A stretch of DNA of 64,000 bases from Owenweeksia hongkongensis DSM 17368 (GTDB taxonomy: Bacteria > Bacteroidota > Bacteroidia > Flavobacteriales > Schleiferiaceae). The position numbers were made by a program, and so were the translations under genes. Positions 3,606-33,905 of this stretch are shown in pieces; positions within the stretch are counted from its first letter, which is position 1; every line of letters starts with the position of its first letter. The notes beneath the pieces were generated by a model, which was given only the letters and a program-made list of their open reading frames with translations, was not told the DNA's origin and made no database searches. Location of the stretch: positions 2,170,001-2,234,000 of the forward strand of contig NC_016599.1 of assembly GCF_000236705.1 (NCBI RefSeq). Direction: 5' to 3'.

Positions 3606-3608
3606 AGC

Positions 3609-4691
3609 TTAGTTTTTAATAAGGTTTTTGGTAAACTGGTTACCATCGGGCATAATAAAGCGGGCTATATAAAGCCCTGCGGTCAACGCATTGACATCCA
3701 CGTACATCACCGATGCTGGGTTTATAGAAGTGTTAATGTATTCTGTACCATACTGATCCAGTATAATAAAGTTGATGTCGCTGTTTTCGAACTCGGTGCC
3801 GCTATAAGTCATTTCAAGCACGCTACTCACGGGATTGGGGAACATTGCAAAATCATCCTCTAAGTTAATCTCCTGCTCAGTTATTATAGCCTCATCATAA
3901 AATAATTGATAGCCACTGTAAGATTCAGTTCTGACTTCTACCAAGCACTTTCCCTTTCTCGAAAGTCTTCGTACTTTAGATTTTGAAAGCCCCAGCCTCA
4001 AATATCCTTGAGTGGTTGTCACAAAAGACTCCAAACTATAATAGGGTTCGTCAACTACATTATCAAAATTCTGATAAACACGCAGGTTTTCTATAGGATC
4101 AATGAATATTTGGTGTGACCCATCACTAGTACTTATAGTGTAGCTTTGGTTGGAATAACTCACCTCATATCCTCCATTTTGTAGCTCTTCGATTGGCAAA
4201 TCTTCAAATAGCGGAAAGGGAAGCATGGGCGAAAGGCCATCCTCTATGATAGCGTCCATCAAGGTATCTTCATTGGCAAGATAAAACTCTGAATGGGGTA
4301 GATCCGATATTAGGTTTCCCTCGAGTGAATAAACTTTTGCCCCAAGATTATCAATAATGATATGCCCCATGGGCTTCTCCCAACTTTCAATAGGGCTAAG
4401 ACTATCAATGTCAATCCTTTCAGTTTTCAGCCAAGTTGGACTTATTGCTTTTTCATGTGTTCGGATTTCATGCCGTGGCTCCATGTCTATCCAGTCCCAT
4501 TCTGTCATATCTTTATGAGAGGTGGAGTCTGGCAATAAGTAGTATACATCTTCCTGAACTGTATACTTTTCATAAAAAAGATTCTCTAGGGATGATTGTG
4601 CCATTGCCACTTCCGTTTGCAACACTGCGAAAACTAATAGCATCCACGATACTGCACACCTCTGTTGTAGTATATAAACTAATTTTTCCAT
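3609..4691 (-). CDS. Secreted protein with type IX secretion C-terminal domain
   Basis: 360 aa. The N-terminus carries a signal peptide ending near VAMAQS (~residue 33). The C-terminal ~80 residues have the T9SS type A sorting pattern: FPNPVSSVLEM at the start, a GLYIARF strand, and a Lys-rich end (TKNLIKN). The middle part has no family I recognise. It is the first gene of a closely packed exported-protein cluster and is divergent from the XRE regulator, with 238 bp of intergenic DNA between them. T9SS cargo is carried across the outer membrane and released or anchored to A-LPS. What it does outside the cell is not evident. Confidence 0.85.
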   Translation of the reverse strand: MEKLVYILQQRCAVSWMLLVFAVLQTEVAMAQSSLENLFYEKYTVQEDVYYLLPDSTSHKDMTEWDWIDMEPRHEIRTHEKAISPTWLKTERIDIDSLSPIESWEKPMGHIIIDNLGAKVYSLEGNLISDLPHSEFYLANEDTLMDAIIEDGLSPMLPFPLFEDLPIEELQNGGYEVSYSNQSYTISTSDGSHQIFIDPIENLRVYQNFDNVVDEPYYSLESFVTTTQGYLRLGLSKSKVRRLSRKGKCLVEVRTESYSGYQLFYDEAIITEQEINLEDDFAMFPNPVSSVLEMTYSGTEFENSDINFIILDQYGTEYINTSINPASVMYVDVNALTAGLYIARFIMPDGNQFTKNLIKN

Positions 4692-4929
4692 AAAGCTTGG
4701 TTTTTTGAAATGTTAAACAATTTTTCTGTAGGTATTCATTACGTTATGTAAGTGAATAGATAAAGGTAAATAGCTACCAAGCTTTTGCTTATTCGAAATC
4801 TGAATAATCTCAATGTGTGAATAGCCTAAAAATGAAGCTCACCAAAACTAGCGATTCATCATACCTAGTTATAGTTACCTATTTTTCAAGGAGAAGACAT
4901 ACTTTTATGTACCTCATGCAACTAACGTT
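4692..4929. promoter_or_regulatory. Divergent intergenic region between the exported-protein operon and the XRE gene
   Basis: AT-rich 238-bp spacer with promoters expected in both directions. A minus-strand TAnnTTTG match (TAGTTTTG, 4843-4850) is present but lies ~150 bp from the operon start, so its role is uncertain. No strong inverted repeat that would mark an operator was noticed by eye. Confidence 0.35.
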
Positions 4930-5136
4930 ATGGTGAGAACTGGAAAAATCAAAGCTTTGAGAGAACAGAATGAAATGACGCAGGAAGTACTAGCTGATTT
5001 TTTGAATGTTTCTCAACCTACTTATGCCCGCATGGAAAGCGGTCGGCAAAAGCTTAGGGTTGAACAATTGTTTCTTTTAGCCCATGTTTTTAGAGTTAAG
5101 CCTATTGAGCTTATTGATCTATCCAATGTCCTCTGA
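4930..5136 (+). CDS. XRE-family helix-turn-helix DNA-binding protein
   Basis: 68 aa, essentially a single Cro/C1-type HTH. Residues 8-60 show the usual pattern: KALREQNEMTQEVLADFLN, then VSQPTYARMESG as the recognition-helix region. There is no additional dimerisation or sensor domain. It is divergent from the exported-protein operon starting at 4691 and convergent with the 249-aa secreted protein that ends 34 bp away. Single-domain XRE proteins often repress their own and adjacent promoters. Regulation of the divergent operon is an inference from position only. Confidence 0.85.
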   Translation: MVRTGKIKALREQNEMTQEVLADFLNVSQPTYARMESGRQKLRVEQLFLLAHVFRVKPIELIDLSNVL

Positions 5137-5170
5137 TTGAAAAAATAAACTGAGCGCTTCATTAATATTT

Positions 5171-5920
5171 TCACAAACCCATAAACGTATACAAGATTTT
5201 ATCCTGAACTAACTCCTCTTGCGTAGAAGTTGGTTTGTAAAAATAGATCACCTTGAAGTCATACTCTTCCCAGGTCTGCTTGATTTTAGGTGCCGTTACC
5301 TCATGGTCATTAGTCATCACAGCGTAAGGGCTAGTTTCTCCCCTAAAAATCATTATTACACGGAAATCCTTGTCTTCTTTTAAGGTTTTGTTTTCCTCGC
5401 GATAAACGTGAACTACTAGCTCTTCAAACTTCTTTTCTTCAAACTTATAGGTCTCGAATAACTCCTTAAAACCTGCGGCTTGCTCGTTGCGGTTTTTCAA
5501 GGCAAGAAGCTCAGAAATTCTTTCTTCGGGTACACTTCCGTCCACAAACTTTGTTTTAAACAGATAGCCTTCAACAATTGCCCTAAAGCGGTCATTGCCA
5601 CGAAAGGCCTCTACCTTCACACCTTCTTTTATTTTTATCTCTGCCAACGTGCTTCCTATTTTCACATTTTCTTTGGTAAAGAAATCAGCCCCGGAAATGA
5701 TGTACTTATCATCCACCACATTTTTTGGGTCTACATACACTTCCTTACGGATTTTATACCAGCCATCTTCTGGTGCAAATGAAAATACCTTTTCATCAGC
5801 CTCAAGGCTAAAAAGTGCTTCGCCACTTGGCTTTGAAAGAACCTTGGCTGTTTCTTCAATTATTTGTGATTTGGCCGTAAATGCCAATCCTAGTAAAGCA
5901 AGTGCAATTAGTTTTTTCAT
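5171..5920 (-). CDS. Secreted protein of unknown function
   Basis: 249 aa with a signal peptide (MKKLIALALLGLAFTAKSQ). Residues ~20-75 (VLSKPSGEALFSLEADEKVFSFAPEDGWYKIRKE read in pieces) resemble the short beta-strand pattern of bacterial SH3-type domains, which is only a weak similarity. The remainder is rich in Glu and Lys with no motif I can name. It follows the LuxE-like gene by 6 bp on the same strand and is probably co-transcribed with it. No function is proposed. Confidence 0.7.
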   Translation of the reverse strand: MKKLIALALLGLAFTAKSQIIEETAKVLSKPSGEALFSLEADEKVFSFAPEDGWYKIRKEVYVDPKNVVDDKYIISGADFFTKENVKIGSTLAEIKIKEGVKVEAFRGNDRFRAIVEGYLFKTKFVDGSVPEERISELLALKNRNEQAAGFKELFETYKFEEKKFEELVVHVYREENKTLKEDKDFRVIMIFRGETSPYAVMTNDHEVTAPKIKQTWEEYDFKVIYFYKPTSTQEELVQDKILYTFMGL

Positions 5921-5926
5921 AAATTT

Positions 5927-6919
5927 TCAAATTACCATTAGGTTACAGCCCCGAATATCGGAATTATCAAAACGCCCCATTACCTCAAAACTGTCATCTT
6001 CATAAATTCTTCCCAAATCCTGAGTTTCAATAAAAGCGCAGCTGTCAATATTAGCCAAATCTATCACATTGATTCCACCCGTTTTCCCTTTTCTAGTTGC
6101 ACTAAAAGGGTCATCTGTTTGTCGAGTAATTATTTTCATCCATGGTGGACAGTTAAATCTTCCCTCACCTTTGGAATATCCTTGAGACAAAAGCTCCGTC
6201 ATTCCATATTCCGAATGAATATTTTTTACACCAAAGCCTTGCTTCAAAATAGCGTGTAAATCCGTTCGAATCATTTCCTTTCGCCTTCCTTTCATCCCTC
6301 CGGTTTCCATAACTGTAAGATCATCAAATGAAATTTGGTAACGTTCAACAAAATCCAAAAGTCCAAAACTCACCCCAAGCAAAAGTGTCTTTTTACCCTC
6401 GCCTTTCTTCTTTTGCAAAACAGCATAAAGCTCATCCCATTGATTGAGATAAAAATTACTATCCGCATCTTCTGATTGCTGAATCAGTGCCTCCGCCATA
6501 TAGATCAAAGAAGAACCTTGGCGCTCTAAATAGGAAGGCAATAGTGCCAAAATGCACCAATCTTTAGCATTTCCATAAAATTGCCCAAAAGCAGTATTGA
6601 AACTATTTTCATAAACAGAAAGATCGGCAATAGCATGTTTACTGGTAGTTCCATCACCAGTACCCGAACTGCTGAAAGAAATAGCAGAATCAAAGACACC
6701 CGTTTTTATCTGATGAGTTTTAAAAAAAGAAATCGGCAAAAAAGGAATTTCCGACACACGATCAATCTGGAATGCATGTAACTTTAAATACGATAAATAC
6801 TCTTTGTACACCGTATTATTCTCAGCCTGAAAGCGAAACAACTCTAATGCTAATTGCTCAAACTCCTCCTCTGTCTGTATACCGAAAACCCTATCTTTGA
6901 AATATTGCTTGTTAACCAA
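5927..6919 (-). CDS. LuxE-like acyl-protein synthetase / phenylacetate-CoA ligase-like enzyme
   Basis: 330 aa. The adenylation-type nucleotide loop SFSSSGTGDGTTSKH lies at about 81-95, followed by EYGMTELLSQGY, the GxTE-type motif of the ANL superfamily, and a C-terminal GRFDNSDIRGCNLMVI. The length and the SSGT loop fit the LuxE (acyl-protein synthetase) family, which activates fatty acids as acyl-AMP or transfers acyl groups. It has no signal peptide and should be cytoplasmic. LuxC/D reductase partners are absent from the window, so luminescence is not implied. LuxE-like genes without lux operons are common in Flavobacteriia; their substrate is not known to me. Confidence 0.8.
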   Translation of the reverse strand: MVNKQYFKDRVFGIQTEEEFEQLALELFRFQAENNTVYKEYLSYLKLHAFQIDRVSEIPFLPISFFKTHQIKTGVFDSAISFSSSGTGDGTTSKHAIADLSVYENSFNTAFGQFYGNAKDWCILALLPSYLERQGSSLIYMAEALIQQSEDADSNFYLNQWDELYAVLQKKKGEGKKTLLLGVSFGLLDFVERYQISFDDLTVMETGGMKGRRKEMIRTDLHAILKQGFGVKNIHSEYGMTELLSQGYSKGEGRFNCPPWMKIITRQTDDPFSATRKGKTGGINVIDLANIDSCAFIETQDLGRIYEDDSFEVMGRFDNSDIRGCNLMVI

Positions 6920-6951
6920 CGTTTGATGCTATAGCTGCGTTTATATAATCG

Positions 6952-7473
6952 ATGAAAATACAGTTTCCAAAAATACTACTCTGCGCTCTTTTTCTTACCC
7001 TCACTTACGTGGGATGCAAAAAAGACAAAGCATTTCCAGACACCCCTAACCTTAAATGGGATGATTATGAAATTATGCCGGAAAACGGCCCCATCGATGA
7101 AATTGTGCTAAACCTAGCGTTCACAGATGGTGACGGAGATATTGGTTCCGGAAGTCAAAATGCTTACGACACTTGCAATTCACAATCTTACGACTTATTT
7201 ATTCGCTACTTTGAAAAAGTAGGTGGCAGCTACCAAGAAGTATTTCCGGTAGACACTACCAGTTGTTTATACTTCCACCAAAGGTTTCCAGACATCACCC
7301 CTGAAGGGCAAAATAAGATATTGGAAGGTAATATTTACGCTCCCTTTATCTTTTTAGGATTTCCTTCAAATGCCAATGTAGACACCATAAAGTTTGAGGT
7401 AGTTCTAAAAGATAGAGCGGGAAATAAGAGTAATGTAGCTACTTCGCCAGGAATATTTATTCCTCCACTATAA
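6952..7473 (+). CDS. Hypothetical lipoprotein
   Basis: 173 aa. The hydrophobic N-terminus ends in TYVGC, so Cys22 is a likely lipidation site followed by KKDK. The mature region includes FTDGDGDIGSGSQN, an acidic Asp/Gly loop that may bind Ca2+, and ends in an Ig-like strand pattern (VVLKDRAGNKSNVATSPG). It is divergent from the LuxE-like gene and convergent with the Na/Pi transporter, overlapping it by 17 bp at the 3' ends. Function unknown. Confidence 0.75.
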   Translation: MKIQFPKILLCALFLTLTYVGCKKDKAFPDTPNLKWDDYEIMPENGPIDEIVLNLAFTDGDGDIGSGSQNAYDTCNSQSYDLFIRYFEKVGGSYQEVFPVDTTSCLYFHQRFPDITPEGQNKILEGNIYAPFIFLGFPSNANVDTIKFEVVLKDRAGNKSNVATSPGIFIPPL

Positions 7474-9181
7474 GTTCGTTGTCTTTTTTCAAAGATTCAG
7501 TCACCCCAAGAACGTGGTCACCAATTCGCTCAAGCTCCGAAATCAAATCACTATAGTAAACACCACTTCTTACCTGGAATTTTCCTGATTCCACTTTCTT
7601 AATATACTCTTTACGCAGGCGCTTGTATGTTTCATCAATTTCGTTTTCCAACTCTTCGGCCTTCGCAAAATCAATATCTCTCTCGTAAGCCTCTAAGTTT
7701 TCCACCATCAGGTCCAAAGACTTCTTTACCAAAGCGGCAATCTCAGCCACTCTGTCACGCATCTCTTGGGTAAAGTATGCCTTCTTCTTTTTCCGCATAG
7801 TAAGGTTTCTGCTTATCTCTAAATAAATATCGCCTATGCGTTCAAGGTAGTTCGCAATATTCAACATACTCCTTACCTGATGTCCACCATTGCTACTCAA
7901 TTCACCTTTGGCTGCTTTACTCAGATAACTTGAAATTTCCAGCTCCATCCTATCGGTAATGTCCTCATACTTTTCCAACTGATCGGTATAATACCTAAGC
8001 TTTTTCTCATCCATTTCGGTAACGAGCCTTGGCACATATTTAAAGGCCCGCCTTACGATATCCGCAAATTTCACCACCTCCTTCCGCGCTTCCAAAATAG
8101 AAAGCTCAGGCGTTTCCATCATTCCACTGCCTATATAATCGAGGCTAAATACTTCGTCATCCTCACTGCGGCTAGGTACCATTTTGATTACTACTTTGGC
8201 TATAAAGCCAACAAAACCTACCAGTATTAATAGGTTTAAAATATTAAATGAGGTATGAAATAAAGCGAGCGCGGCAGGAATACCTGTTGCCGTTTTCATG
8301 GGATCTGCTCCAAAAATATCAACAGAGGCTCCGGCTATCAGATTTACAAAAAAGGGAAAAACGGCCAGCATCCAAAGTACGCCAAACACGTTGAACACAA
8401 AGTGTGCCCGAGCTGCTCGTTTAGCATGCACATTTCCTATAAGTGCCGCTAAATTGGCGGTAATGGTGGTTCCAATGTTCTCACCCAAAATAATAGCTGC
8501 GGCCAATGGAAAGGAAATCCATCCCTCATTACACATTACCAGAGTAAGAGCCATGGCCGCACTAGACGACTGTACCACAATGGTGAGCACAGTACCAATA
8601 GCTACAAAAAGTAGTACTATAAAAAACTGTTTTATGTATGGCTGACCAGCGTAGTCAACATTCTTTACAAAGCTCAGCAACTCTTCATTTTGGAGACCGC
8701 CTACTGCTTCTTTCATGAAATTAAGACCCAGAAACAAAATGGCAAAACCAAGCAGCACTTCGCCCCAAAGCTTAAGCTTTTCACGAGAGCTAAACATCAT
8801 GGGGAAACCAATAGCAATAATCGGTAAACACATGCTGGCAATGCTAAACTTACCCAAGCCCAGCTGTGAAATAAGCCAACCTGTGACCGTGGTTCCCACA
8901 TTAGCTCCCATTATTACTCCAATAGATTGGATGAGAGAAAGCAGTCCTGCATTTACAAAGCTTACCACCATAACTGTAGTGGCTGATGAAGATTGCACCA
9001 TGGTGGTGATTAGCACACCAGTAAGCACGCCTAACAGACGATTGGAGGTCATCGCTTCCAGAATCTCCCTAAGCTTATTGCCTGCTACTTTTTGAATAGA
9101 ATCACTCATCACCTTCATTCCAAAAATGAAGAGGCCTAGAGCTCCAATGAGCGATAAAAAGTCAAAAATCCCGAATGCCAT
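7457..9181 (-). CDS. Na+/phosphate cotransporter family protein with PhoU-like tail
   Basis: About 574 aa from the ATG at 9181; a GTG two codons upstream (9187) is also possible. The membrane half carries the duplicated NptA/SLC34 signature QSSSATT (VQSSSATTVMVVSF) and VQSSSAAMALTLV in inverted-repeat topology. The C-terminal ~200 residues are helical and charged (YLERIGDIYLEISRN and ISELERIGDHVLGV), the PhoU-like pattern. The family couples Na+ gradients to phosphate uptake, or export in some bacteria. A likely promoter lies at 9242-9273. Flavobacterial homologues share this architecture. The direction of transport is not predictable here. Confidence 0.9.
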   Translation of the reverse strand: MAFGIFDFLSLIGALGLFIFGMKVMSDSIQKVAGNKLREILEAMTSNRLLGVLTGVLITTMVQSSSATTVMVVSFVNAGLLSLIQSIGVIMGANVGTTVTGWLISQLGLGKFSIASMCLPIIAIGFPMMFSSREKLKLWGEVLLGFAILFLGLNFMKEAVGGLQNEELLSFVKNVDYAGQPYIKQFFIVLLFVAIGTVLTIVVQSSSAAMALTLVMCNEGWISFPLAAAIILGENIGTTITANLAALIGNVHAKRAARAHFVFNVFGVLWMLAVFPFFVNLIAGASVDIFGADPMKTATGIPAALALFHTSFNILNLLILVGFVGFIAKVVIKMVPSRSEDDEVFSLDYIGSGMMETPELSILEARKEVVKFADIVRRAFKYVPRLVTEMDEKKLRYYTDQLEKYEDITDRMELEISSYLSKAAKGELSSNGGHQVRSMLNIANYLERIGDIYLEISRNLTMRKKKKAYFTQEMRDRVAEIAALVKKSLDLMVENLEAYERDIDFAKAEELENEIDETYKRLRKEYIKKVESGKFQVRSGVYYSDLISELERIGDHVLGVTESLKKDNELIVEE

Positions 9182-9241
9182 AGTCACTATATTTATTCAA
9201 CCCTTAAGGTTAACCTACGATGCTCAATTCATTAGCGGCTG

Positions 9242-9273
9242 CAAAAGTAAACGCTTTGCTGGAATAGCAACAA
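9242..9273 (-). promoter_or_regulatory. Bacteroidota-type promoter for the Na/Pi cotransporter
   Basis: Minus-strand -7 box TACTTTTG (complement of 9242-9249) with a TTG at 9271-9273, 21 nt upstream. This matches the Bacteroidota sigma-ABfr pattern of TTG, about 20 nt, TAnnTTTG. The predicted transcript start is about 50 nt before the start codon. Confidence 0.5.
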
Positions 9274-9339
9274 GCATTAAAGACCAAGTGCTTAGCATAC
9301 ATTATGAGCGTAAGTACATTATCAAATTGACATATCATT

Positions 9340-10128
9340 CTACTGAATGGTATCCAAAATAGAGCTGTGGCTATATGTGCCAAAATATCCTAATTGAATA
9401 TCACCTTTTAAGTTAGTGGTTGGATTTCCAGGGGCGATTCCAGGAGGGCCTGTTTGACTAACTATTGATGCCAGGGTAACAAAATATTCATACACGTCAG
9501 CATCTATACTTTGAAGCTCCACTTCTACTACATCACCTTGCCCAATTTCATATCCAAAAAGTGGTAGATTCAGATACGTACCCTGATTAAATTTATCACT
9601 AAAAACAGTAATATCTCCTTCAGGCTGACCATTAACACGCACTACAATTTGATAATAATTGATTGTATCCGGTGGATCTTGAAAGGCAACATTGATACTA
9701 TATGAAGCATCTGAAAAATCATTTGGAGGGAAGTACTCAAAAGTAATGGAATCAAGCAAGACAGTTGGTGGCATATAACTTTCTGCCTGTGTAATTTGTC
9801 CTTGCACGTCTGTTTTTATGCTGTAGGTTCTGTTCACCATCGATTTTACTCCCATCACTAAATACCGACCGTTTCCCATTGGGCTAGCCTGCATTATGTT
9901 TCCATCTCCATCAGTGAATTCAATATCTGCGCCATCCACTACAGGATTTGGATCATTGCTAAAATAATCCGCTGTTTGGCTAATGGAAATCCACAAACTA
10001 TCCTCCCCTGCTGGAAGATTTGCTTCTAAAACCATTTGTGGGTCGGAACTGTTGAGATCCACATCTATAACCTTTTCGCAAGAAGCCAATATGAGTGCCA
10101 CGGCAGAAAGTATTAAAAACCTTTTCAT
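9340..10128 (-). CDS. DUF4249 domain lipoprotein
   Basis: 262 aa. The signal peptide ends in a clear lipobox, LASC (Cys17), followed by EKVIDVDLN, the characteristic start of DUF4249 proteins. The body contains the usual pattern (MVLEANLPAGEDSLWISIS, then DGDGNIMQ and a QAESYMPP stretch). DUF4249 genes generally follow a CarboxypepD_reg-TonB receptor, as here, where the start is 6 bp after the receptor stop. The protein is presumed to be an outer-membrane lipoprotein accessory to that receptor. The ligand is unknown. Confidence 0.88.
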   Translation of the reverse strand: MKRFLILSAVALILASCEKVIDVDLNSSDPQMVLEANLPAGEDSLWISISQTADYFSNDPNPVVDGADIEFTDGDGNIMQASPMGNGRYLVMGVKSMVNRTYSIKTDVQGQITQAESYMPPTVLLDSITFEYFPPNDFSDASYSINVAFQDPPDTINYYQIVVRVNGQPEGDITVFSDKFNQGTYLNLPLFGYEIGQGDVVEVELQSIDADVYEYFVTLASIVSQTGPPGIAPGNPTTNLKGDIQLGYFGTYSHSSILDTIQ

Positions 10129-10134
10129 AATATC

Positions 10135-12456
10135 TTAAAATCTAAAATTGTAACTGATTGATGGGATCGCTTTAAAAAGAGCAAACTGTACAGCTTCTGT
10201 CTGTCCAGTATCTTCATTTTCTTCAAAATTTATGATATACGGATTTTCTCTTCCGTAGGCATTGTACACTGAGAAATTCCAGCTACTTTCAAATTTTTCT
10301 GTTTTCTTAACGGTCCAGGTTAAGCCTAAGTCCATGCGATGATAATTGGGAAATCGATAACCATTTCTCTCGGTGTAATATGGTACCTGCCTACCAGCTG
10401 ACTCGTATTTTCCTGAAGGAAAGGTAACTGCATCTCCTGTATAAAACACAAAATTGGCAGAAGCTGTCCACTTTGGGTGAAAAGCATAAATTGCAGTAAC
10501 CGATAGATCATGAATACGATCTTGTCGAGATGGAAATATCTTGCCATCATCAATGTCATCAAATTCTCTAAGCGATCGTGATAGTGTGTAGCTGAGCCAG
10601 CCCGTGAATTTTCCTTGGGTTTTTTTCAATAAAAGTTCTAAACCATATGCCTTTCCACTTCCGTAAACAAGCTCTGTCTCCACGCTACTATTAAAAACTA
10701 AGTCTGCTCCAGTACGGTAATCAATTAAGTTTTGCATCTCTTTATAGTACACTTCAGCTGAAAACTCAAACATATTATCTTTAAAATTTCTAAAATACCC
10801 AGCGGCCACTTGATCTGCAATCTGTGGCTTCACATTGTTACTACTTGGTACCCACCTATCCGTTGGGGAGCCTGATGTAGAATTAGAAAGCAAGTGCATA
10901 TACTGATAATTTCGATTATAAGCCACCTTGAGTGAGCTCTTCTCGTTCAAAAGGTATTTAGCGGAAGCGCGGGGTTCCAGCCCATTGTAAAACTGTATCG
11001 ACTCCCAGTTCCCATAGGCTTGTGTAGAAGTTACTACCCCATCATCATCAATTTCGTAAGCCTCTCCGGCTCCCATGTAATCAAATAAGCTGTATCGCAA
11101 ACCATATGTAAAACTCCACCTAAGTCCCACCTTTTGCTCATTCTGTACATAAAGTGCGCCTTCCACTGCATACTGCTCATCAATATCTTCAGCTGCAAAA
11201 CTGCTTTCAGATCCAGTACTTATTTTACCCGGCACAAAATTGTGACGAATCACATTAGCGCCAAATTTGATAGTGTTATTTGAATTTAAAAAATAAGAGA
11301 AGTCCTGCTTCAGATTCCAGTCCTTAATTCCAGATTCAAGGGTAAACTTTTCTTCGTCTGCACCAATATCAAAAGCATAGTCGTAGTCGCTATAAATGAG
11401 TGACGTATTTCCAAAAAGGCGATCATTAAAAATATGATTCCAGCGCAAAGTTCCTGTAGCATTTCCCCAGCTAAAGCCAAACTCATCATCAAAGCCAAAG
11501 TTATCTCTACCAAAATATCCGCTCACATAGATTCTATCCCTATCCGTAATTTGATAATTAGCTTTAAGGTTTAGATCATAAAAGTAAAGTGTAGTATTTT
11601 TCAAATCCTCATTACTGGATAACTTCAAAAACAAATCGGCATAAGTGCGTCTCCCACTAACAATAAATGACCCTTTATCTTTTACTATTGGAGCTTCAAG
11701 CGTAAGCTTAGAAGAAATAAGTCCAATGCCTCCAGAAGCACCAAACCTTTTGGCGTTACCATCCTTCATAATTACGTCCATCACCGAGGATGCTCGACCA
11801 CCATATTCTGCTGGCATTCCTCCTTTATAAAGGGTTACATCCTTTATCGCATCAGAATTAAAAACCGAAAAGAATCCCAAAAGATGTGAGGCATTGTAAA
11901 CGGGGGCTTCATCGAGCAGTATCAAGTTTTGATCTAGACCTCCACCCCTTACCGAAAACCCACTCCCACCTTCACCAGAAGTTTTTACTCCAGGAAGTAA
12001 TTGCACCATTTTTATGATGTCTTTTTCACCAAAAAGAACGGGCACCGTTTCTACATCTTTAGGAGAAATTTTGGCAACGCTCATCTCCGTTTTAGTCACG
12101 TTAGCATTAGCTGCCTCCGCACTTACAACTACCTCCTCCAAGCTTTCTGTTTCTTCCCTTAACTCTATATCCAGACTCACATCTTTATCCAAAACCACTT
12201 CCTTTATCACCGATTGATAACCTATGTATTGGATACTAATTTGATAAGTTCCTTTTGCAAGTGTAAGAGAGTAAAAACCATACGTATTGGTTGTAGCGCC
12301 TTTTCCAGAAACTCCTTCAACCACCACAGCAGCACCAATAAGGTCCTCACCATTTGCGGCATCTTTTACCCGCCCTTTTAGGGTGTAGTTTTGCGCATAA
12401 GCATATTGAGTCATTGTGGCCAAACACAATAACATCAAACATAATTTTTTAGTCAT
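10135..12456 (-). CDS. TonB-dependent receptor with carboxypeptidase-regulatory-like N-terminal domain
   Basis: 773 aa from ATG 12456. An upstream ATG (12480) would add eight residues ahead of MTKKLCLMLLCLATM, a proper signal peptide, so the later start is preferred. A CarboxypepD_reg-like domain (~22-105) is followed by the plug (VQLLPGVKTSGEGGSGF, SVRGGGLDQNLILLDEAPVY, and YKGGMPAEYGGRASS) and a 22-strand-type barrel ending in aromatic SYNFRF. Such receptors import ligands across the outer membrane using TonB/ExbBD energy. Pairing with DUF4249 rather than SusD argues against a classical glycan SusCD system. The substrate is unknown. Confidence 0.93.
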   Translation of the reverse strand: MTKKLCLMLLCLATMTQYAYAQNYTLKGRVKDAANGEDLIGAAVVVEGVSGKGATTNTYGFYSLTLAKGTYQISIQYIGYQSVIKEVVLDKDVSLDIELREETESLEEVVVSAEAANANVTKTEMSVAKISPKDVETVPVLFGEKDIIKMVQLLPGVKTSGEGGSGFSVRGGGLDQNLILLDEAPVYNASHLLGFFSVFNSDAIKDVTLYKGGMPAEYGGRASSVMDVIMKDGNAKRFGASGGIGLISSKLTLEAPIVKDKGSFIVSGRRTYADLFLKLSSNEDLKNTTLYFYDLNLKANYQITDRDRIYVSGYFGRDNFGFDDEFGFSWGNATGTLRWNHIFNDRLFGNTSLIYSDYDYAFDIGADEEKFTLESGIKDWNLKQDFSYFLNSNNTIKFGANVIRHNFVPGKISTGSESSFAAEDIDEQYAVEGALYVQNEQKVGLRWSFTYGLRYSLFDYMGAGEAYEIDDDGVVTSTQAYGNWESIQFYNGLEPRASAKYLLNEKSSLKVAYNRNYQYMHLLSNSTSGSPTDRWVPSSNNVKPQIADQVAAGYFRNFKDNMFEFSAEVYYKEMQNLIDYRTGADLVFNSSVETELVYGSGKAYGLELLLKKTQGKFTGWLSYTLSRSLREFDDIDDGKIFPSRQDRIHDLSVTAIYAFHPKWTASANFVFYTGDAVTFPSGKYESAGRQVPYYTERNGYRFPNYHRMDLGLTWTVKKTEKFESSWNFSVYNAYGRENPYIINFEENEDTGQTEAVQFALFKAIPSISYNFRF

Positions 12457-24864: not shown

Positions 24865-25800
24865 TTATACATTTTTCAACATATCTTCTACCATAGCGTC
24901 CAAGCTGAAATCGTTTTTCCAACCCCAATCCTGACGTGCTACCTGGTCATCAATTTCCTGAGGCCATCCTAATGCGATATCATTTCGGCTATCTACATTG
25001 TAAGTGATTTCAAAATCAGGAATATGCTTTTTAATGGCTTCCGCTAACTGCTTTGGCGTAAAGCTAAAAGCTGCCAAATTATAGCTGGTGCGAATTTTCA
25101 CATCTTCAGCTGGCGCTTCCATAATGCCGATAGTTGCTTTAATCGCATCAGGCATGTACATCATTGGCAAGGCAGTATCTTCTGCAAGGTAGCATTCGTA
25201 CTTGCCTTCCTTTTTTGCCTTATGGAAAATATCTACAGCATAATCTGTAGTCCCTCCACCTGGCTCAGTTTTATAAGATATCAATCCAGGGTAGCGAATA
25301 CTCCGCACGTCCACCCCGTATTTTTTACAGTAGTAATCACACCAAAGCTCACCGCTAAGTTTACTTATTCCATATACAGTTCCCGGATCCATTACCGTGT
25401 GCTGAGGAGTATCTACTTTTGGAGTAGTTGGCCCAAATGCAGCAATAGAGCTTGGCCAATACAGCTTATTGAACTGCTTTTCGCGAAGCATTTCAAGCGT
25501 ATGAAAAAGACTCACCATATTAAGGTCCCAGCCCTTCATAGGCATTTTTTCGGCTGTAGCCGAAAGCATGGCTACCAAGTGATAAATCTGAGTAATTCCG
25601 TGCTTTGCCACCACTTCCTCCAAACGGTCACGATCCATAGCATTCACTATCTCAAAAGGACCAGACTCCAAAATGTGCTTTGCTGGTTCTTTAATATCTG
25701 AAGCCACTACATTTTCGTTGCCATAGGATTGGCGAAGTGTTTCTATAAGGTCAGTACCTATTTGGCCCGAAGAGCCAAGTACCAATATCTTTTCTTGCAT
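24865..25800 (-). CDS. tdh: L-threonine 3-dehydrogenase, short-chain (NAD-epimerase-like) type
   Basis: 311 aa from ATG 25800, which follows an AAAAAGAG ribosome-binding sequence; an upstream ATG (25857) would add 19 residues ahead of the Rossmann motif and is rejected. The core shows ILVLGSSGQIGTDL (GxxGxxG), the Ser in WPSSIAAFGP and the YGISK dyad at 143-147, with the characteristic TVYGISKLSGELWCDYYC. This enzyme oxidises L-threonine to 2-amino-3-ketobutyrate with NAD+, which KBL then cleaves to glycine and acetyl-CoA. The family is typical of Flavobacteriia. A decayed copy of the 5' end occurs at ~27605-27750. Confidence 0.9.
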   Translation of the reverse strand: MQEKILVLGSSGQIGTDLIETLRQSYGNENVVASDIKEPAKHILESGPFEIVNAMDRDRLEEVVAKHGITQIYHLVAMLSATAEKMPMKGWDLNMVSLFHTLEMLREKQFNKLYWPSSIAAFGPTTPKVDTPQHTVMDPGTVYGISKLSGELWCDYYCKKYGVDVRSIRYPGLISYKTEPGGGTTDYAVDIFHKAKKEGKYECYLAEDTALPMMYMPDAIKATIGIMEAPAEDVKIRTSYNLAAFSFTPKQLAEAIKKHIPDFEITYNVDSRNDIALGWPQEIDDQVARQDWGWKNDFSLDAMVEDMLKNV

Positions 25801-25819
25801 CTCTTTTTGAATAAGGGCG

Positions 25820-25827
25820 CAAAGATA
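25820..25827 (-). promoter_or_regulatory. Candidate -7 box for tdh
   Basis: TATCTTTG on the minus strand, a full TAnnTTTG match 20 nt upstream of the start codon. No clear -33 box. A stem (ATGCCGAC/GCCGGCAT, 7 of 8 pairs) lies just upstream. Both the box and the stem are kept in the decayed copy at 27710-27747. Confidence 0.45.
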
Positions 25828-25955
25828 AAAATGCCGACCCAAGTATTGAGCCGGCATTCTAGATTATCTATTAAAACTTAAACAACCGTTTACAACATTT
25901 TCAAAAACCAACTACTACAAGTAGACTCACAAACTTCATTAACTGAATTACCCTC

Positions 25956-27249: not shown

Positions 27250-27277
27250 CTTTTGTCCTAACTCCCTTCGAGTGAGC

Positions 27278-27400
27278 TTTTGCAAACTTGCGCGTTTTAA
27301 AATTGATGGAAAATAGGCCCCAACCCAAGAACAAAAGGTATGATTAATAAGTACGGTCGCGAAGAATTAATTGAATGACTGTAAGAGGAACCTTTTAATG
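27278..27400 (+). pseudogene. Decayed copy of the trhO upstream region and 5' end
   Basis: By eye ~80% of the bases match the region around the start of trhO (32821-32950), including GCTTTTG, TTTAAAATTGATG and the coding stretch ATGATTAATAAGTACGGTCG, which translates as MINKYGRE like residues 10-17 of TrhO. In the copy the frame meets stops after ELIE, the TAnnTTTG box is destroyed (CAAACTTG) and the start region is scrambled. Same orientation as trhO. Clearly non-functional. Confidence 0.75.
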
Positions 27401-27604
27401 AGGAGCTGTCTGAGCTGCTGAAAACCCCAAAAGGTTAGGTACGTAAAAAATACTTCGGTACTGTACGTGTAACATCCATTGCGAAAAAACCATTAAAACC
27501 AACAGCTCTTTCAGCCGAGCGGAATCAGAGGCATCTATACCTTCAAAAGGGTTGGCCCCTAGCGCATGTTCTTTCCCGGTTCTTTTATATCAGAACCCGC
27601 TACG
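27401..27604. other. Unassigned sequence between two gene fossils
   Basis: About 200 bp with no supported gene. On the plus strand a frame continuing from the trhO-like start shows an in-frame stop and some coding-like composition (EELSELLKTPKG before a stop). I see no match to other parts of the window. It may be remnant coding sequence from a lost gene. Confidence 0.4.
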
Positions 27605-27750
27605 CTTGTTACCATATGACTGGCGAAGTGTTTTTATAAGGTCATACCTATTTGGCCCGAGGAGCCACGTACCAATATCCTTTCCTGAATCTCTTTTTAA
27701 ATAAGGGCACAAAGATAAAATGCCGACCCAAGCATTGAGTCGACATTTCT
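27605..27750 (-). pseudogene. Decayed copy of the tdh 5' end and promoter
   Basis: It matches 25720-25860 at close to 90% by eye (for example TGGCGAAGTGTTT and CCTATTTGGCCCGA). The copy has lost the start codon (CAT became AAT on the plus strand) and has a 1-bp deletion (GTCAGTACC became GTCATACC). Only the first ~60 codons are present. The -7 box (27710-27717) and the upstream stem survive. The stem, read on the minus strand, runs into TTTTATC and could now terminate the fibre-protein operon that ends at 27804. Confidence 0.8.
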
Positions 27751-27803
27751 TTTATTCAAATAAAATTATGGTTTTGCGGCCTAAAGTATCAAGCAACTAT
27801 TCT

Positions 27804-28535
27804 TTATAGTGCTTCCACAGTTATATATCCATATTCTGCATCTATTGTAGCCGTGGTTACACCTCCTACACTAATTATTCTTAAATCTACAGTAGTAGTA
27901 ACGGTAGGTGTTATATATGCTACAGCAGTTGGTTGTGATGAGATATTATCAGGGTCATTAACTGCGTAAAAGAAACCTCTATTTCCAATATTAACTCCTG
28001 CCGTAATGTTGTACCAAGAATAGACCACATAATCCATATTTGCAACATGTACCGCATTTAAAGCAGCTGTTAATTTATAGGTAACACCAGCGGTAAGCGT
28101 TACAGTACCGCCACCAGCACTAAAGCCAGCTGTACCTACATTGCCAGCAGAAGCTAATATCGTAAGGTTATCAATATTATTATTTACTTGTACATTCTCA
28201 TCTGCATTCATCCTGGCGTGCAAAAACTCTGGTGTTGGTGCTACTGGACATAAATTTACCCAGTTTGTAACATCCGCATCAGGAGTGGCATCTGTGTTTG
28301 TGCCAGTTAGATTTTTGTAAAAAGTACCGTTGTAAATAACAATATAGTCCGATGTGTAATAAGTGCCTCCATTCGTTTGAGATTTCCAGGTAGTGGAAAA
28401 AGCGGAATCTTTATAATTTCCGTTTACTTCTAGTTTTTCCGTTGGAGAGCTGGTGCCCACCCCCACGTTTCCTGTTTGGGCGTTGGCCATAAATCCCAAC
28501 AGAGCAAATACGACAATTGTGAGTTTGGTTTTCAT
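27804..28535 (-). CDS. Secreted GTSSP-motif protein, paralogue 4 (possible jelly-roll head)
   Basis: 243 aa with a signal peptide (MKTKLTIVVFALLGFMANAQ), then TGNVGVGTSSPTEKLEVNGN, the stalk-like motif shared by the four consecutive genes. A unique insert (YYTSDYIVIYNGTFYKNLTG) with Trp/Tyr resembles carbohydrate-binding insertions but is not assignable. The C-terminal half (TVTLTAGVTYKLTAALNAVH ... YGYITVEAL) has the strand rhythm of C1q/TNF-like domains, with weak support. It is the last gene of the six-gene operon. No T9SS domain; export beyond the periplasm is unexplained. Confidence 0.75.
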   Translation of the reverse strand: MKTKLTIVVFALLGFMANAQTGNVGVGTSSPTEKLEVNGNYKDSAFSTTWKSQTNGGTYYTSDYIVIYNGTFYKNLTGTNTDATPDADVTNWVNLCPVAPTPEFLHARMNADENVQVNNNIDNLTILASAGNVGTAGFSAGGGTVTLTAGVTYKLTAALNAVHVANMDYVVYSWYNITAGVNIGNRGFFYAVNDPDNISSQPTAVAYITPTVTTTVDLRIISVGGVTTATIDAEYGYITVEAL

Positions 28536-28564
28536 TTTTTTCGAATTTTAAGTTGGTTAGGTGA

Positions 28565-29161
28565 TCAAAGCCTTTCGATACTTACGAAATTGTTGACATA
28601 ACCTGAACCAATTATTAGAGTGGCCCTGTAAGCATACCGATTTGTCTCATCTGTAAAAAGAATGGTTTGAATATTGCCGTGATGAGTGAAGTTTGCTGAA
28701 GATTGCCAGCGGTAAAACGTGCCACCTGCAAAACTGTCGGATCTACGCGTATAACCTGTCACAGTACTGGACGCGCCACCCACCGATAGCGCTCCCCCGT
28801 GATAATTGTTAATGCTGGCACCGCTCAGCGTGGCGGTACTGTCCATCCGTATCATTAAGGAACGGTTTCCGCTGGTGGACACCTGAACGCTTATGTTTCC
28901 GAGTGAAACGGGTACTCCAGCATTTACAAAACCTGAAGCTTTGGTAATACCTTCTTGTTTTACCAATTGGCCGGTAGCGGTATCTAAGGCCACATTCATG
29001 GTATTGCTGGTTTTGAGGGGCACATTGCCTATGCGGACATCCCCATTTACATCAAGCTTGGCTTGCGGTGAACTGGTACCTACCCCCACGTTTCCTGTTT
29101 GGGCTGTAGCTATATATCCTGTTAAAGGAAAAATAAGGGTAAGAAAGAATAGTTTTTTCAT
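28565..29161 (-). CDS. Secreted GTSSP-motif protein, paralogue 3
   Basis: 198 aa with a signal peptide ending IATAQ, then TGNVGVGTSSPQAKLDVNGD, VRIGNVPLKTSNTMNVALDT and ATGQLVKQEG. The 'linker then head' layout matches its neighbours. The head differs: GGALSVGGASSTVTGY and WQSSANFTHHGNIQTILF, ending FVSIERL, a fibre-tip-like small beta domain. It lies 29 bp upstream of paralogue 4. Probably a surface fibre or adhesin subunit; this is inference from repeat structure and export signal. Confidence 0.75.
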   Translation of the reverse strand: MKKLFFLTLIFPLTGYIATAQTGNVGVGTSSPQAKLDVNGDVRIGNVPLKTSNTMNVALDTATGQLVKQEGITKASGFVNAGVPVSLGNISVQVSTSGNRSLMIRMDSTATLSGASINNYHGGALSVGGASSTVTGYTRRSDSFAGGTFYRWQSSANFTHHGNIQTILFTDETNRYAYRATLIIGSGYVNNFVSIERL

Positions 29162-29197
29162 AAGGGAAAGGTGAAGTTAAAAGTTTTGAGATGTGCC

Positions 29198-29851
29198 CTA
29201 AGGTAGCTCCACAATACTCATATTATTGAAGCGGCTTTCATTTATTAAAGATTGAGTGGAGCCTATAGTATGAAACATCCGAAACTCCACTGTGTCGCCT
29301 TGCGACAAGGGTCTTAATACCATCAGGCTTCCAGTAGGCTTACTTTGGCTGGTTCCCCCATTCGAATCATAGTTTGCGCTTGTTGCAATCTCAACATTGT
29401 TTACGAAAACAGAAACATTGACTTCGTCACTATTGGCATTGTTGGAACTTAACATTGTGCCGACTGATAGTTGATACAAACCTGTACGTGGCGCTGTGAA
29501 AATTCCAGTGCTGGCATCGTAAGCAGAGGGCAGGGTATTCACCACCGTAGATGACCAAACGATGAGTGTACTTGTATTAGTGGGAATAGAATTATTAACT
29601 GTCTGGGCAGCAATACGTACCAAAGTATCCGATTCAGGTCTGGTGGACTGTAACGCAAATGTATTAGTAGCAGTGTCCAAAACAACCTTCATGGAGGAGG
29701 TTGTCACTGTTTTCATCGAATCCACCCGCAAGTCGCCCTGTACGTGGAGTTTGGCTTGTGGTGAAGAAGTTCCAATACCCACATTTCCTGATTGAGCGCT
29801 GACTATATAACTCGCTAAGACTAATATGGCCATAATGATTTTTGTTTTCAT
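29198..29851 (-). CDS. Secreted GTSSP-motif protein with C1q/TNF-like head, paralogue 2
   Basis: 217 aa. A signal peptide (ending IVSAQ) is followed by SGNVGIGTSSPQAKLHVQGD and LRVDSMKTVTTSSMKVVLDT. Residues ~110-217 fit a C1q/TNF-type jelly roll: STGIFTAPRTGLYQLSVG (FxxPxxGxYxxS), VSVFVNNVEIATSANY, LRPLSQGDTVEFRMF and the closing FNNMSIVELP. It is close to paralogue 1 throughout the head. C1q-like folds form trimers; a trimeric surface fibre is an inference. Confidence 0.8.
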   Translation of the reverse strand: MKTKIIMAILVLASYIVSAQSGNVGIGTSSPQAKLHVQGDLRVDSMKTVTTSSMKVVLDTATNTFALQSTRPESDTLVRIAAQTVNNSIPTNTSTLIVWSSTVVNTLPSAYDASTGIFTAPRTGLYQLSVGTMLSSNNANSDEVNVSVFVNNVEIATSANYDSNGGTSQSKPTGSLMVLRPLSQGDTVEFRMFHTIGSTQSLINESRFNNMSIVELP

Positions 29852-29979
29852 GTCAATTAAATTTGTTTAGAGTCTGTTTTTAGTATTAAAAGCTACTGCG
29901 TTTTAGCTTCTGTAAGATTGGTATTGATTTAAAATTAAATACTGATTTTCAATAATATACCAAATGATAATATTCAAAC
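29852..29979. other. AT-rich spacer inside the fibre-protein operon
   Basis: 128 bp between paralogues 1 and 2. It contains a weak hairpin (AAGCTA/TAGCTT with an 8-nt loop near 29889-29911) followed by T-rich sequence on the minus strand, which might cause partial termination. No full TAnnTTTG box was seen. Confidence 0.35.
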
Positions 29980-30630
29980 CTATGGGAGTTCTTCAATACT
30001 CAGAAAGTTCCATACCGAATTATAAAGTGTTTGGGTAGAGCCAACCCCTTGAAATGCCCATACTGAAACAGTTTCTCCAGCATTTAATTCAACCATGGTG
30101 GAAAGGCTGCCCGCAGGTTTGTAAATGCTCCCACCTCCACTTGAATCAAAATTTCCAGCTGCGGCAAAATCAGCACCGTTCTTTCTTACTATTACAGTAT
30201 GCTGTGCATTATTCCCCGTGTTGGGATTAAAAGTGAGATTGGTCGAAATGCGGTAGAAACCCTTGTGGGGGGCTGTAAAAATACCTGTCGAAGCGTCCCA
30301 GGCAGATGGCACCGTATTGATATCTGTACCTGACCAAACAATGCGTGTAGCTGTAAGATGCGGAACTGAGTTTCCACCTGTTTTCGCATAAATTCTAACT
30401 AAGGTATCCCGGTTAGATCGTATGAGCTGTATTGCCACCTTCTTTGATGCAGAATCCAAAACCAAATTATACTTAGAATAATCTATCGCTTTGAGTGAAT
30501 CTACACGTAAGCTACCTTCAACGTGTAGCTTGGCCTGTGGTGCAGTGGTGCCCACTCCAACATTTCCTGATTGGGCTACTGTAATGAAACTTGCTGCTAT
30601 CAGTACTGCTGTAAATAAATACTTTTTCAT
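29980..30630 (-). CDS. Secreted GTSSP-motif protein with C1q/TNF-like head, paralogue 1
   Basis: 216 aa. Signal peptide (MKKYLFTAVLIAASFITVAQ), then SGNVGVGTTAPQAKLHVEGS and LRVDSLKAIDYSKYNLVLDS. The head (~105-216) carries the C1q/TNF signatures STGIFTAPHKGFYRISTN, HTVIVRKNGADFAAAGNF, VELNAGETVSVWAFQ and NFLSIEELP. It follows the 61-aa gene by 9 bp. The match to paralogue 2 suggests tandem duplication followed by head divergence in paralogues 3 and 4. Confidence 0.8.
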   Translation of the reverse strand: MKKYLFTAVLIAASFITVAQSGNVGVGTTAPQAKLHVEGSLRVDSLKAIDYSKYNLVLDSASKKVAIQLIRSNRDTLVRIYAKTGGNSVPHLTATRIVWSGTDINTVPSAWDASTGIFTAPHKGFYRISTNLTFNPNTGNNAQHTVIVRKNGADFAAAGNFDSSGGGSIYKPAGSLSTMVELNAGETVSVWAFQGVGSTQTLYNSVWNFLSIEELP

Positions 30631-30639
30631 AATTATACT

Positions 30640-30825
30640 TTAATCAATTTTCTTCTTTGCGTCATAATACTTTTTACCACCAAATGCTGCTCCAGCTGCT
30701 AACAGCAAACTTATCCCTCCATCTAATGGAGCAGGTGAAGTAGGGTTTCCAGGCTGGGCATTAAGCAATAAAGTAGACCCGATGAATACGAGAGCCACCA
30801 AAGCAATTGTGTTTATATTTTTCAT
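30640..30825 (-). CDS. 61-aa exported peptide with PLDGG-hydrophobic-KK tail (PID-CTERM-like)
   Basis: 61 aa: signal peptide ending LLLNAQ, a short linker PGNPTSPA, then PLDGGISLLLAAGAAFGGKK and a Lys-rich end. The tripartite tail (short motif, hydrophobic helix, basic cluster) resembles the PID-CTERM sorting signals described in Bacteroidota, in which the motif is usually PxDGG-like. It starts inside the stop of the T9SS protein gene (ATGA), so the two are coupled. Almost nothing besides the sorting region remains after signal cleavage. The function of such minimal proteins is unclear. Confidence 0.7.
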   Translation of the reverse strand: MKNINTIALVALVFIGSTLLLNAQPGNPTSPAPLDGGISLLLAAGAAFGGKKYYDAKKKID

Positions 30826-32396
30826 GGTACTAATATTTTTGTAGAAGATGATTTCAGATTATCGTCAGTAAATTGTAGTAGGTATACTCCACTTGCCAAG
30901 CGAGGACTAAGCACGGTTTGGTCACTCTCCATACGTTTGGTGGCAAAGCATTTTCCTCCCAATCCATATAATTTTAAGGTTCCGTTGTCCATGCCTATTT
31001 TTCTAATTCCTATTTGTCCTTCAGCATTTACCCAACCCACTATTTCTGGAAGTGTCTGCTCTGCATTCAAGGCTACTCCTTGCTGATTTAAGTGAAGTAC
31101 AAAGCGTTTGTCATTGTCATTCATATCCACCTTCACCGTCATGTCCTGCTTTCGCAAATCAATGCGCTTGCCTCCTGCCAGGTCTTCGAGCTCCACCTTC
31201 CAAGCCGGGTCAAGTTGATTGTCATCTAAGCTAAAAGTGTGAAGGGTTTGCGCTTGTTGTGTTTTTACGGTAACCGGTATGCTGTACCCAGCCACAGGCA
31301 GATGGTTTATGCTCAGCTCCAATCCTTGGTACTCCATATACATGGTTGGCACATCTCGGGTTGATTTTATCTTATAGGCATCATATCCATTATCCATACC
31401 TATAGTGGCATCTGGTCCAAAGAAAACCACCATTCTATCATAGGTGGAATCATTGGTATTGGTAACACTTAGGTTTAATAAATCGTAAGGTCTTGAACTC
31501 ATAAAAGCAGTGGCCGTAGAATCTGGCTCACGCACGGTATTATCAAGAGTAAAAGTACCATCCGCATCTACTTTTATCCAAAAACCTTGAAATGGCTGTA
31601 TATGTGAAGCTCCGCTTGCTGTAGCGTTAGTGTTGTATACTGTTACTCCGCTAGATGTAAGAGCTTCGTACTGGCCATTTACATTATCCCACACATGGAT
31701 AGCTTCGTAAGTCGGAAAACTTCCTAAAGCAAAAAGCTTATCCACACTTACATTACTAGGATAAGGGTTTGGGATGAAGTTCCATCCCTGGGCGTTTGCA
31801 TTACCTGTTTGACCAATGTCATAGGTGTTTTTTACAGCAAACGCTTGATTACCATTTGAAGGCGTACCTCCTATCCTGATAGTTTGCGTAAAGTCATGCA
31901 CCCCATTTTGGTCACCAAACACTGTGTATGAGCGAGAGCCAGTAGTGGTGGGGGCTGCTTCAGTCCAGCCGATAGCTTCACCGGCACCAGCGTCTGTGGC
32001 ATCCCAATAGTACATATTGCGTCTACCTGCCACACCTCCATCATTGGCACTGGTTATAAAACTTATACCATCTGTGTTAAGATTTTGAACTTGATTGGTA
32101 AACGGAATCCCCAATTGACGCCAGCCTGTGGTCATATCGGTCAGATACATTTCCATATCTAACTGTCCTATATTACCCACATTATTCACTTGAAGCAGTT
32201 GAGCATAGCCTGTGGCATCGGCATTTAGATAGATAGTGCCATTAGAAGTAATGGAGCCTTCTACCGTGAGAATGCCTCCAGGTTCTACCCATAAAGTATC
32301 TCCTGAGTCTACAAATAAATCTTGTGAAAAAGCACTACCAGAAACTACCAATAGGCAAGGTAGCAACCAAGATTTGGAGAATAAAGATTGATTCAT
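30822..32396 (-). CDS. Secreted T9SS surface protein, first gene of the fibre operon
   Basis: 524 aa with a signal peptide ending GSAFSQ. The N-terminus repeats short beta motifs (VEPGGILTVEGSITSNGTIY), typical of beta-helix/autotransporter-like stalks, followed by large beta-rich segments with NFIPNPYPSNVSVDKLFAL and SHIQPFQGFWIKVDADGTFT, a pattern seen in many Bacteroidota T9SS proteins. The last ~75 residues form a type A sorting domain (LYGLGGKCFATKRM, SGVYLLQFTDD, TKILVP). A full promoter lies ~130 nt upstream of the start codon. Probably the outer-surface carrier of the locus. Confidence 0.85.
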   Translation of the reverse strand: MNQSLFSKSWLLPCLLVVSGSAFSQDLFVDSGDTLWVEPGGILTVEGSITSNGTIYLNADATGYAQLLQVNNVGNIGQLDMEMYLTDMTTGWRQLGIPFTNQVQNLNTDGISFITSANDGGVAGRRNMYYWDATDAGAGEAIGWTEAAPTTTGSRSYTVFGDQNGVHDFTQTIRIGGTPSNGNQAFAVKNTYDIGQTGNANAQGWNFIPNPYPSNVSVDKLFALGSFPTYEAIHVWDNVNGQYEALTSSGVTVYNTNATASGASHIQPFQGFWIKVDADGTFTLDNTVREPDSTATAFMSSRPYDLLNLSVTNTNDSTYDRMVVFFGPDATIGMDNGYDAYKIKSTRDVPTMYMEYQGLELSINHLPVAGYSIPVTVKTQQAQTLHTFSLDDNQLDPAWKVELEDLAGGKRIDLRKQDMTVKVDMNDNDKRFVLHLNQQGVALNAEQTLPEIVGWVNAEGQIGIRKIGMDNGTLKLYGLGGKCFATKRMESDQTVLSPRLASGVYLLQFTDDNLKSSSTKILVP

Positions 32397-32802: not shown

Positions 32803-32835
32803 TTGTGCTCATAGCCCCAAGCTTTTGTAAATTTG
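32803..32835 (+). promoter_or_regulatory. Promoter of trhO
   Basis: TTG (32803-32805), 22 nt, TAAATTTG (32828-32835). The -7 box is a full match and lies 23 nt before the ATG. The decayed copy at 27278 has lost this box. Confidence 0.55.
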
Positions 32836-32858
32836 CAGCGCTTTAAAATTGATGCAGA

Positions 32859-33905
32859 ATGGATCCCAACGCAGGAAAAAAAGGAATGATCAATAAGTAT
32901 GGTCGCGAACAGCTTATCAAAAAGCTCGAGGCCGAAACTTTTAAAAGGAAGACGGTTTCCTTTTACAAGTATGTTATTCTTGCAAATCCGCAGGATATGC
33001 GCGACACACTTTACCGTGAGTGGCAAGAGTTGGATTGCAACGGACGAATTTATGTAGCTCGCGAAGGCATTAATGCCCAGATGAATGTACCCGAGCACAA
33101 CTGGGAGGCCTTTGTAGAAAAGGTGTATTCTCATCCCGAACTTAAAGATGTTCCCTTCAAAATTGCGGTAGAAGATGATGGCAAATCATTCCTGAAGCTT
33201 ACGGTAAAAGTTCGTGAAAAGATAGTGGCCGATGGCCTTAATGAAAATGATTGGGATGTGACCAATGTAGGCCGACACCTAAATGCAGAGGAGTGGAACG
33301 AAGCTTTGGATAACGAAGGAACTGTAGTGGTGGATATTCGCAATCACTATGAAAGTGAGATTGGTCATTTTGAAAACGCCTTGCTGCCAGAAGCCGAAAC
33401 CTTTAGAGACGAGCTCCCCGAGGTATTGAACTTATTAAAAGGGAAAGAAGACAAAAAAGTGCTTTTGTATTGTACGGGAGGTATTCGTTGTGAAAAAACA
33501 AGTGCCTACCTTAAACACCATGGTTTTCAAGATGTAAATCAATTACATGGTGGCATCATTGACTACGCTCGTCAAATAAAGACTAAAGAGCTCCCCAACC
33601 GCTTTCGCGGAAAAAACTTTGTATTTGATGACCGCCTTGGTGAAGGTATTTCTGAAGAAGTGGTTTCACACTGCCATCAATGTGGAAAGCCTTGCGATAA
33701 GCATGTAAATTGTGCTAACAAGGAGTGCAATCTTCTATTTATACAGTGTGATGAATGTGCTGAAAAGCACGAAGGAACCTGCACACCAAAATGTCAGGAA
33801 ATAATTCATTTACCAGAGGAAGAGCAAAAAAAACTACGTCAAGGCAAAAAGCAAAAGAAGATATTTCATAGTCATAAAAAGGTGAATCTCAAGGGAGAAG
33901 AATAA
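32859..33905 (+). CDS. trhO: tRNA uridine 5-oxyacetic-type hydroxylase / rhodanese-related sulfurtransferase
   Basis: 348 aa of the TrhO (YceA) family. An acylphosphatase-like N-terminal domain (~33-130, [15 protein letters not shown]) is followed by a rhodanese domain with the active-site loop [11 protein letters not shown] (Cys205, with Cys211). The C-terminal tail has a Cys-rich cluster ([20 protein letters not shown], then [16 protein letters not shown]), likely to bind zinc. TrhO hydroxylates U34 of certain tRNAs in an O2-dependent, TrhP-independent route. Complete; a partial decayed copy lies at 27278-27400. Confidence 0.93.

Follow-up and report, generated by a model that had tools for sequence, protein, structure and literature searches.

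What could make one transcription unit of a protein with a T9SS sorting tail, a 61-aa peptide and four small secreted fibre-like proteins? Such a run of genes is found in Owenweeksia hongkongensis DSM 17368, whose genome is one contig of 4,000,057 bp, and was analysed here within a stretch of 64,000 nucleotides (positions 2,170,001 to 2,234,000 of NC_016599.1; hereafter the window). Positions without a locus name are those of the window, unless they are said to be of the genome.

Gene layout and genomic setting

All six open reading frames of the operon proposed in the earlier note are present at 27804-32396, arranged head to tail and tightly packed on the minus strand. The stop codon of the leader and the start codon of the gene for the 61-aa (PID-CTERM) peptide share 4 bp (ATGA), and the remaining intergenic gaps, in operon order, are 9, 128, 36 and 29 bp. 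The fibre proteins are named from P4, which adjoins the 61-aa peptide, through P3 and P2 to P1. The features are:

30822..32396, minus strand: leader, 524 aa, secreted, a module of about 480 aa plus a T9SS type A sorting tail
30640..30825, minus strand: PID-CTERM mini-protein, 61 aa, matching NF046080
29980..30630, minus strand: P4, 216 aa, secreted, fibre-like, GNVGVGT stalk and C1q-type head
29198..29851, minus strand: P3, 217 aa, secreted, fibre-like, GNVGIGT stalk and C1q head
28565..29161, minus strand: P2, 198 aa, secreted, fibre-like, base of P3/P4 over residues 1-70
27804..28535, minus strand: P1, 243 aa, secreted, fibre-like, shared base over residues 1-42 and an extra segment at about 48-101
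27717..27749, minus strand: terminator-like hairpin, a 15-pair stem followed by a T run, 3' of the last gene

Across the region, the number of terminator-like hairpins is at chance level, and a search against Rfam returned no match. G+C content is 41.9% for the operon and 40.9% for the window, giving no signal of foreign origin by base composition. Three decayed copies of neighbouring genes lie beside the operon. Two resemble trhO: 27275-27398 shares 76% identity with its start (32820-32944), and 27383-27490 is similar to an internal stretch of it. The third, 27566-27765, shares 83% identity with the epimerase gene over its 5' part (25673-25876). These decayed copies suggest a tandem duplication of epimerase-Nramp-trhO, with the operon now in the place of the second Nramp gene.

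The leader, the PID-CTERM peptide and the exosortase

The leader had been described as a T9SS protein, and its tail passes the NCBIfam model for T9SS type A sorting (TIGR04183; 26.6 bits, cut-off 23), while PF18962 scores 15.6 bits, under the Pfam cut-off of 27. We take this tail family to imply passage of the outer membrane via the T9SS, by which the leader is predicted to be exported. Module alignment shows the protein to be almost wholly one module of about 480 aa, which is matched in 150 of 296 Bacteroidota genomes and, in relatives, stands at the C-terminus of proteins as long as about 2,000 aa. Orthologues in Phaeocystidibacter luteus (G010) and the MAG HF-Dia32 (G034) are 40-41% identical, and a contig scan with the three-member leader alignment returned only these two already known orthologues. 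A wider alignment of 13 leaders held no stretch of sufficient conservation for such a scan.

The sorting-type tail claimed for the 61-aa peptide was recognised by NF046080 (PID_CTERM) at 39.7 bits against a curated cut-off of 26, the sole match of this model in the host genome. In the peptide, the signal peptide is followed by about 14 residues that end in PAPLDGG, then by a hydrophobic helix and a basic tail. PID proteins in general are nearly always mini-proteins of this kind, in which signal peptide and tail enclose next to no cargo. The papers searched contain no experimentally shown substrate for the PID-CTERM and exosortase system, no mention of the term PID-CTERM, and no description of its pairing with a gene for the T9SS module.

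This pairing is frequent. The leader module is encoded directly upstream of the PID gene, on the same strand, at 45 of 79 PID genes, compared with 2 of 541 control genes (the other genes within the same sampled stretches). The upstream position is occupied by the module in 16/26 cases within the same family, 9/11 in small-genome relatives and 20/42 in a phylum-wide sample; the leader itself served as query for two of the family loci (L055 and L056), and the remaining loci were retrieved through PID or exosortase hits. The two genes mostly lie less than 130 bp apart, and in several cases they overlap by a few bases. By these counts the leader-PID pair extends more widely than the six-gene operon, and the conserved core is this pair rather than the fibre array. 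One contig (L061, G044:C186:1-10868) carries three tandem pairs of a leader-type gene and a PID peptide gene, the peptides being near-identical.

The idea that PID proteins regularly stand behind leader-type genes in Flavobacteriaceae-type genomes mostly failed, as a PID-like follower, with a divergent tail, was found behind 2 of 38 leader-type genes at the sampled loci. Divergent PID-like tails are encoded by small open reading frames behind the leader-type genes at L196:60-4457 and L197:3828-7463 (PTVPINGKLIFLAIAGIIFAYYTFRKYRK; AAPIHFLIPLAIAAGVALGIRKLK), and PID-like proteins may thus be undercounted outside the family of the host.

PID_CTERM matches were found in 49 of 296 Bacteroidota genomes, spanning 26 genera. 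All 49 encode a TIGR04128-type exosortase (XrtF itself or a relative, such as XrtX, falling under the TIGR04128 cut-off), compared with 41 of the 247 genomes without PID (Fisher 2e-31, kinship ignored). Within the family of the host, the exosortase is present in 32/33 PID genomes and 12/35 others. The exosortase gene lies directly downstream of the PID gene in 11 sampled cases from several groups and genera, including runs of leader, PID and exosortase genes. The host XrtF (144 bits; 3727844-3728389 of the genome) is encoded side by side with its TIGR04127 partner, 1.5 Mb from the operon. XrtF also occurs without a PID match in many genomes of the same order. The 41 exosortase genomes without a detected PID protein indicate that XrtF has other substrates there, and PID proteins cannot be its sole substrates. 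The consecutive accessions NF046080-NF046083 (PID_CTERM, XrtX, XrtX-associated and XrtY) suggest, by their numbering, that NCBI curators already see a link.

Taken together, these results make the 61-aa peptide a probable substrate of the XrtF family, tied to T9SS surface proteins, and its cleavage by XrtF is predicted. Biofilm is strongly reduced and zorbs are lost in F. johnsoniae when xrtF or its neighbour is deleted, and T9SS mutants likewise form much less biofilm and no zorbs (PMC10936215). XrtF substrates are predicted to be unlike PEP-CTERM, and the authors of that 2024 study left the exosortase substrates still to be studied (PMC10936215). Because these substrates were reported as unknown, the link between T9SS, PID and exosortase is the more valuable result of this analysis: it points to candidate XrtF substrates in many members of the Bacteroidota, with the prediction that these act together with T9SS surface proteins. 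More tentatively, and at somewhat short of even odds, PID-CTERM mini-proteins may belong to a surface-display route in Bacteroidota that couples exosortase processing to T9SS secretion, as dedicated exosortase substrates that are small partners of T9SS surface proteins; here this route would serve an array of mini mosaic fibres.

Four fibre proteins and their relatives

P1-P4 each have a signal peptide followed by GNVG[VI]GT..P..KL.V.G, in agreement with the signal peptide and GNVGVGT-type stalk first noticed in them. A DNA pattern for GNVG[IV]GT occurs four times in the whole 4.0-Mb genome, each time in the operon, and a reversed-pattern control gave 0 occurrences. P2, P3 and P4 are homologous over residues 1-70, that is, signal peptide and stalk; P2 aligns with P3/P4 (hhalign, 98.8%) over 1-70 only, and P1 (hhalign, 96.6%) over residues 1-42 only. 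Beyond the shared base only P3 and P4, which are 50% identical throughout, are related.

C1q/TNF-like heads, suggested for at least two of the proteins, are borne out for P3 (PF00386, 7e-9, 36.4 bits, gathering cut-off 23.7), whose head also matches cerebellin chains, and probably for its relative P4 (6.2e-5), which at 23.6 bits misses that cut-off by a tenth of a bit. The P1 and P2 heads gave no Pfam match and are unassigned. The AlphaFold model of P2 is a low-confidence beta sandwich (pLDDT 58.7), for which a fold search gave CBM56 and Ig-like domains as the best PDB matches at Z about 7, which is background level, with no C1q/TNF chains among the listed matches. The model of P1 has a pLDDT of 33, and the P1 segment 48-101 has weak PHROG matches (PHROG 6278, 4.9e-4). 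The closing IE.L motif probably represents no more than the final strand of the head. On none of the fibres was a recognised T9SS or PID tail found, or any other tail that would account for passage of the outer membrane. Pattern matches to P1, P2 and P3 in viral contigs yielded no confirmed relatives, and phage records gave just two weak matches. A 14-base DNA pattern for VGxGT was at chance level across the family and was discarded, and no literature was found on the GNVGIGT motif under that spelling.

The same gene order, sought in other Bacteroidota, recurs as leader, PID and fibre genes in three genomes (G010, G034 and G031) of two further genera, with different heads. In P. luteus and HF-Dia32, leader and PID genes are followed by that for a VG[IV]GT protein with an S74 chaperone domain, and in G031 by that for a VGIGT protein bearing another head. 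In G006, the gene behind the leader encodes a four-motif fibre whose end is a weak match to Fib_succ_major, and no PID gene was detected between the two. The majority of leader-PID pairs in relatives have no adjoining fibre gene. The stalk model matches in 19/68 family genomes, with many copies in some. At locus L173 (G021:C14:9000-23000), positions 2506-11382 encode a fibre array with neither a leader nor a PID gene: six proteins in succession, each bearing one to three VGxG-type stalk motifs. Directly upstream of the leader in HF-Dia32 are genes for a sensor histidine kinase with TPR repeats and a LuxR-type response regulator, with similar genes in P. luteus; these two-component loci (L055:3549-6211 and L056:5578-7270) hint at dedicated regulation.

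Proposed function, alternatives and known systems

We favour, with a probability of roughly 60%, a two-layer surface-adhesion operon, in which a pair of T9SS protein and PID peptide processed by XrtF is joined to four mini-MAT-like fibres with swapped heads. All six proteins would be exported by Sec; the leader would then pass through the T9SS and be held at the cell surface. The 61-aa peptide would sit in the inner membrane, its short N-terminal part facing the periplasm, and would be cut at the PID motif by XrtF, encoded elsewhere in the genome; the released short stretch may be joined to a carrier or act as an accessory in the surface display of the leader. The four fibres would be built like small-scale mosaic adhesive trimers, carrying exchanged heads on one common stalk base. 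They presumably form trimers on this base and reach the surface, where they would bind different ligands that are probably glycans. As to the modular surface adhesin suggested earlier, modularity is visible in the alignments of P1-P4 as a constant base with changed heads, and the role as an adhesin is plausible, the design having precedent.

The peptide could instead stay uncleaved as a single-pass membrane partner, a chaperone or assembly factor, of the T9SS leader, with the co-occurrence of XrtF reflecting shared lineages. This would fit PID proteins being nearly always mini-proteins with almost no cargo, the 41 exosortase genomes without a PID match and the distance of 1.5 Mb between the host XrtF and the operon. 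We nevertheless regard it as fairly unlikely, given that an exosortase is present in all 49 PID genomes of the phylum sample and across 26 genera, that PID and exosortase genes are direct neighbours in several genera, and that the tail of the peptide has the signature-helix-basic layout of known CTERM signals. Highly improbable is a third role for the peptide, as a secreted signal, in which XrtF would free a short proline-rich messenger (about QPGNPTSPAPLD) with the leader and fibres as its outputs: the window has no regulator next to the pair, the peptide part differs widely from group to group and no precedent was found, although only a short conserved stretch separates signal peptide from tail and the leader is immediately preceded by a two-component system in P. 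luteus and HF-Dia32.

The fibre genes, for their part, could be unrelated hitchhikers behind the leader-PID pair, phage-derived or spare tail-fibre-like genes that share no function with it. Signal peptides on all four fibres, an operon G+C like that of the window, the absence of phage genes seen adjoining the operon and the recurrence of the leader-PID-fibre order in three other genomes with other heads make this unlikely, even though the fibre heads and stalk match PHROG tail proteins, most leader-PID pairs have no fibre genes beside them and the decayed gene copies flanking the operon mark a rearranged site.

Each component of the favoured two-layer operon resembles a known system. The leader shares with T9SS type A cargo (TIGR04183) a C-terminal sorting tail over the NCBIfam cut-off, and differs in being a generic C-terminal module only, with no extra domain and with its Pfam tail score below cut-off. 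As in systems of PID-CTERM (NF046080) with XrtF (TIGR04128) or XrtX (NF046081), the peptide is over the model cut-off and the host genome encodes XrtF with its TIGR04127 partner; here, however, the exosortase gene lies outside the six-gene operon. Among the fibres, the likeness to C1q-domain proteins (PF00386) is seen in the P3 head and, at a borderline score, in the P4 head, those of P1 and P2 being unassigned.

The earlier note knew of no described system with this layout, yet a comparable design exists in the MAT fibres of Bdellovibrio bacteriovorus, which have a conserved end and exchanged tips, including TNF/C1q-like tips and S74 versions (PMC10769870). The stalks match solved MAT chains, namely 8ond (Bd2133) for P4 (7.2e-9) and P3 (3e-6) and 8ol4 for P1 (2.5e-5), with a weak best match for P2 (8on4, 0.009), and P1-P4 are therefore best read as miniature MAT-like fibres. 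They share with MAT fibres a signal peptide and the stalk (capping-loop) motif GxxGxGT..P..L.V, a constant base with exchanged tips (the similarity of P2 to P3/P4 ends at residue 70 and that of P1 at 42), TNF/C1q-like forms among the tips, and versions with S74 (in P. luteus and HF-Dia32) and without it. MAT fibres are about 1,000 aa long, compared with 198-243 aa for P1-P4, and their conserved beta-rich domain of about 130 aa after the signal peptide is absent from P1-P4, in which the stalk motif follows directly. Because of this shorter length and the missing N-terminal domain, we call P1-P4 MAT-like and not members of MAT. P1-P4 also differ in having a single stalk motif and in being encoded behind a T9SS/PID pair. 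We see in the array a modest new version of the mosaic-fibre principle; it suggests that the head swapping of predatory Bdellovibrio fibres is also present, in a very short form, in a marine member of the Bacteroidota.
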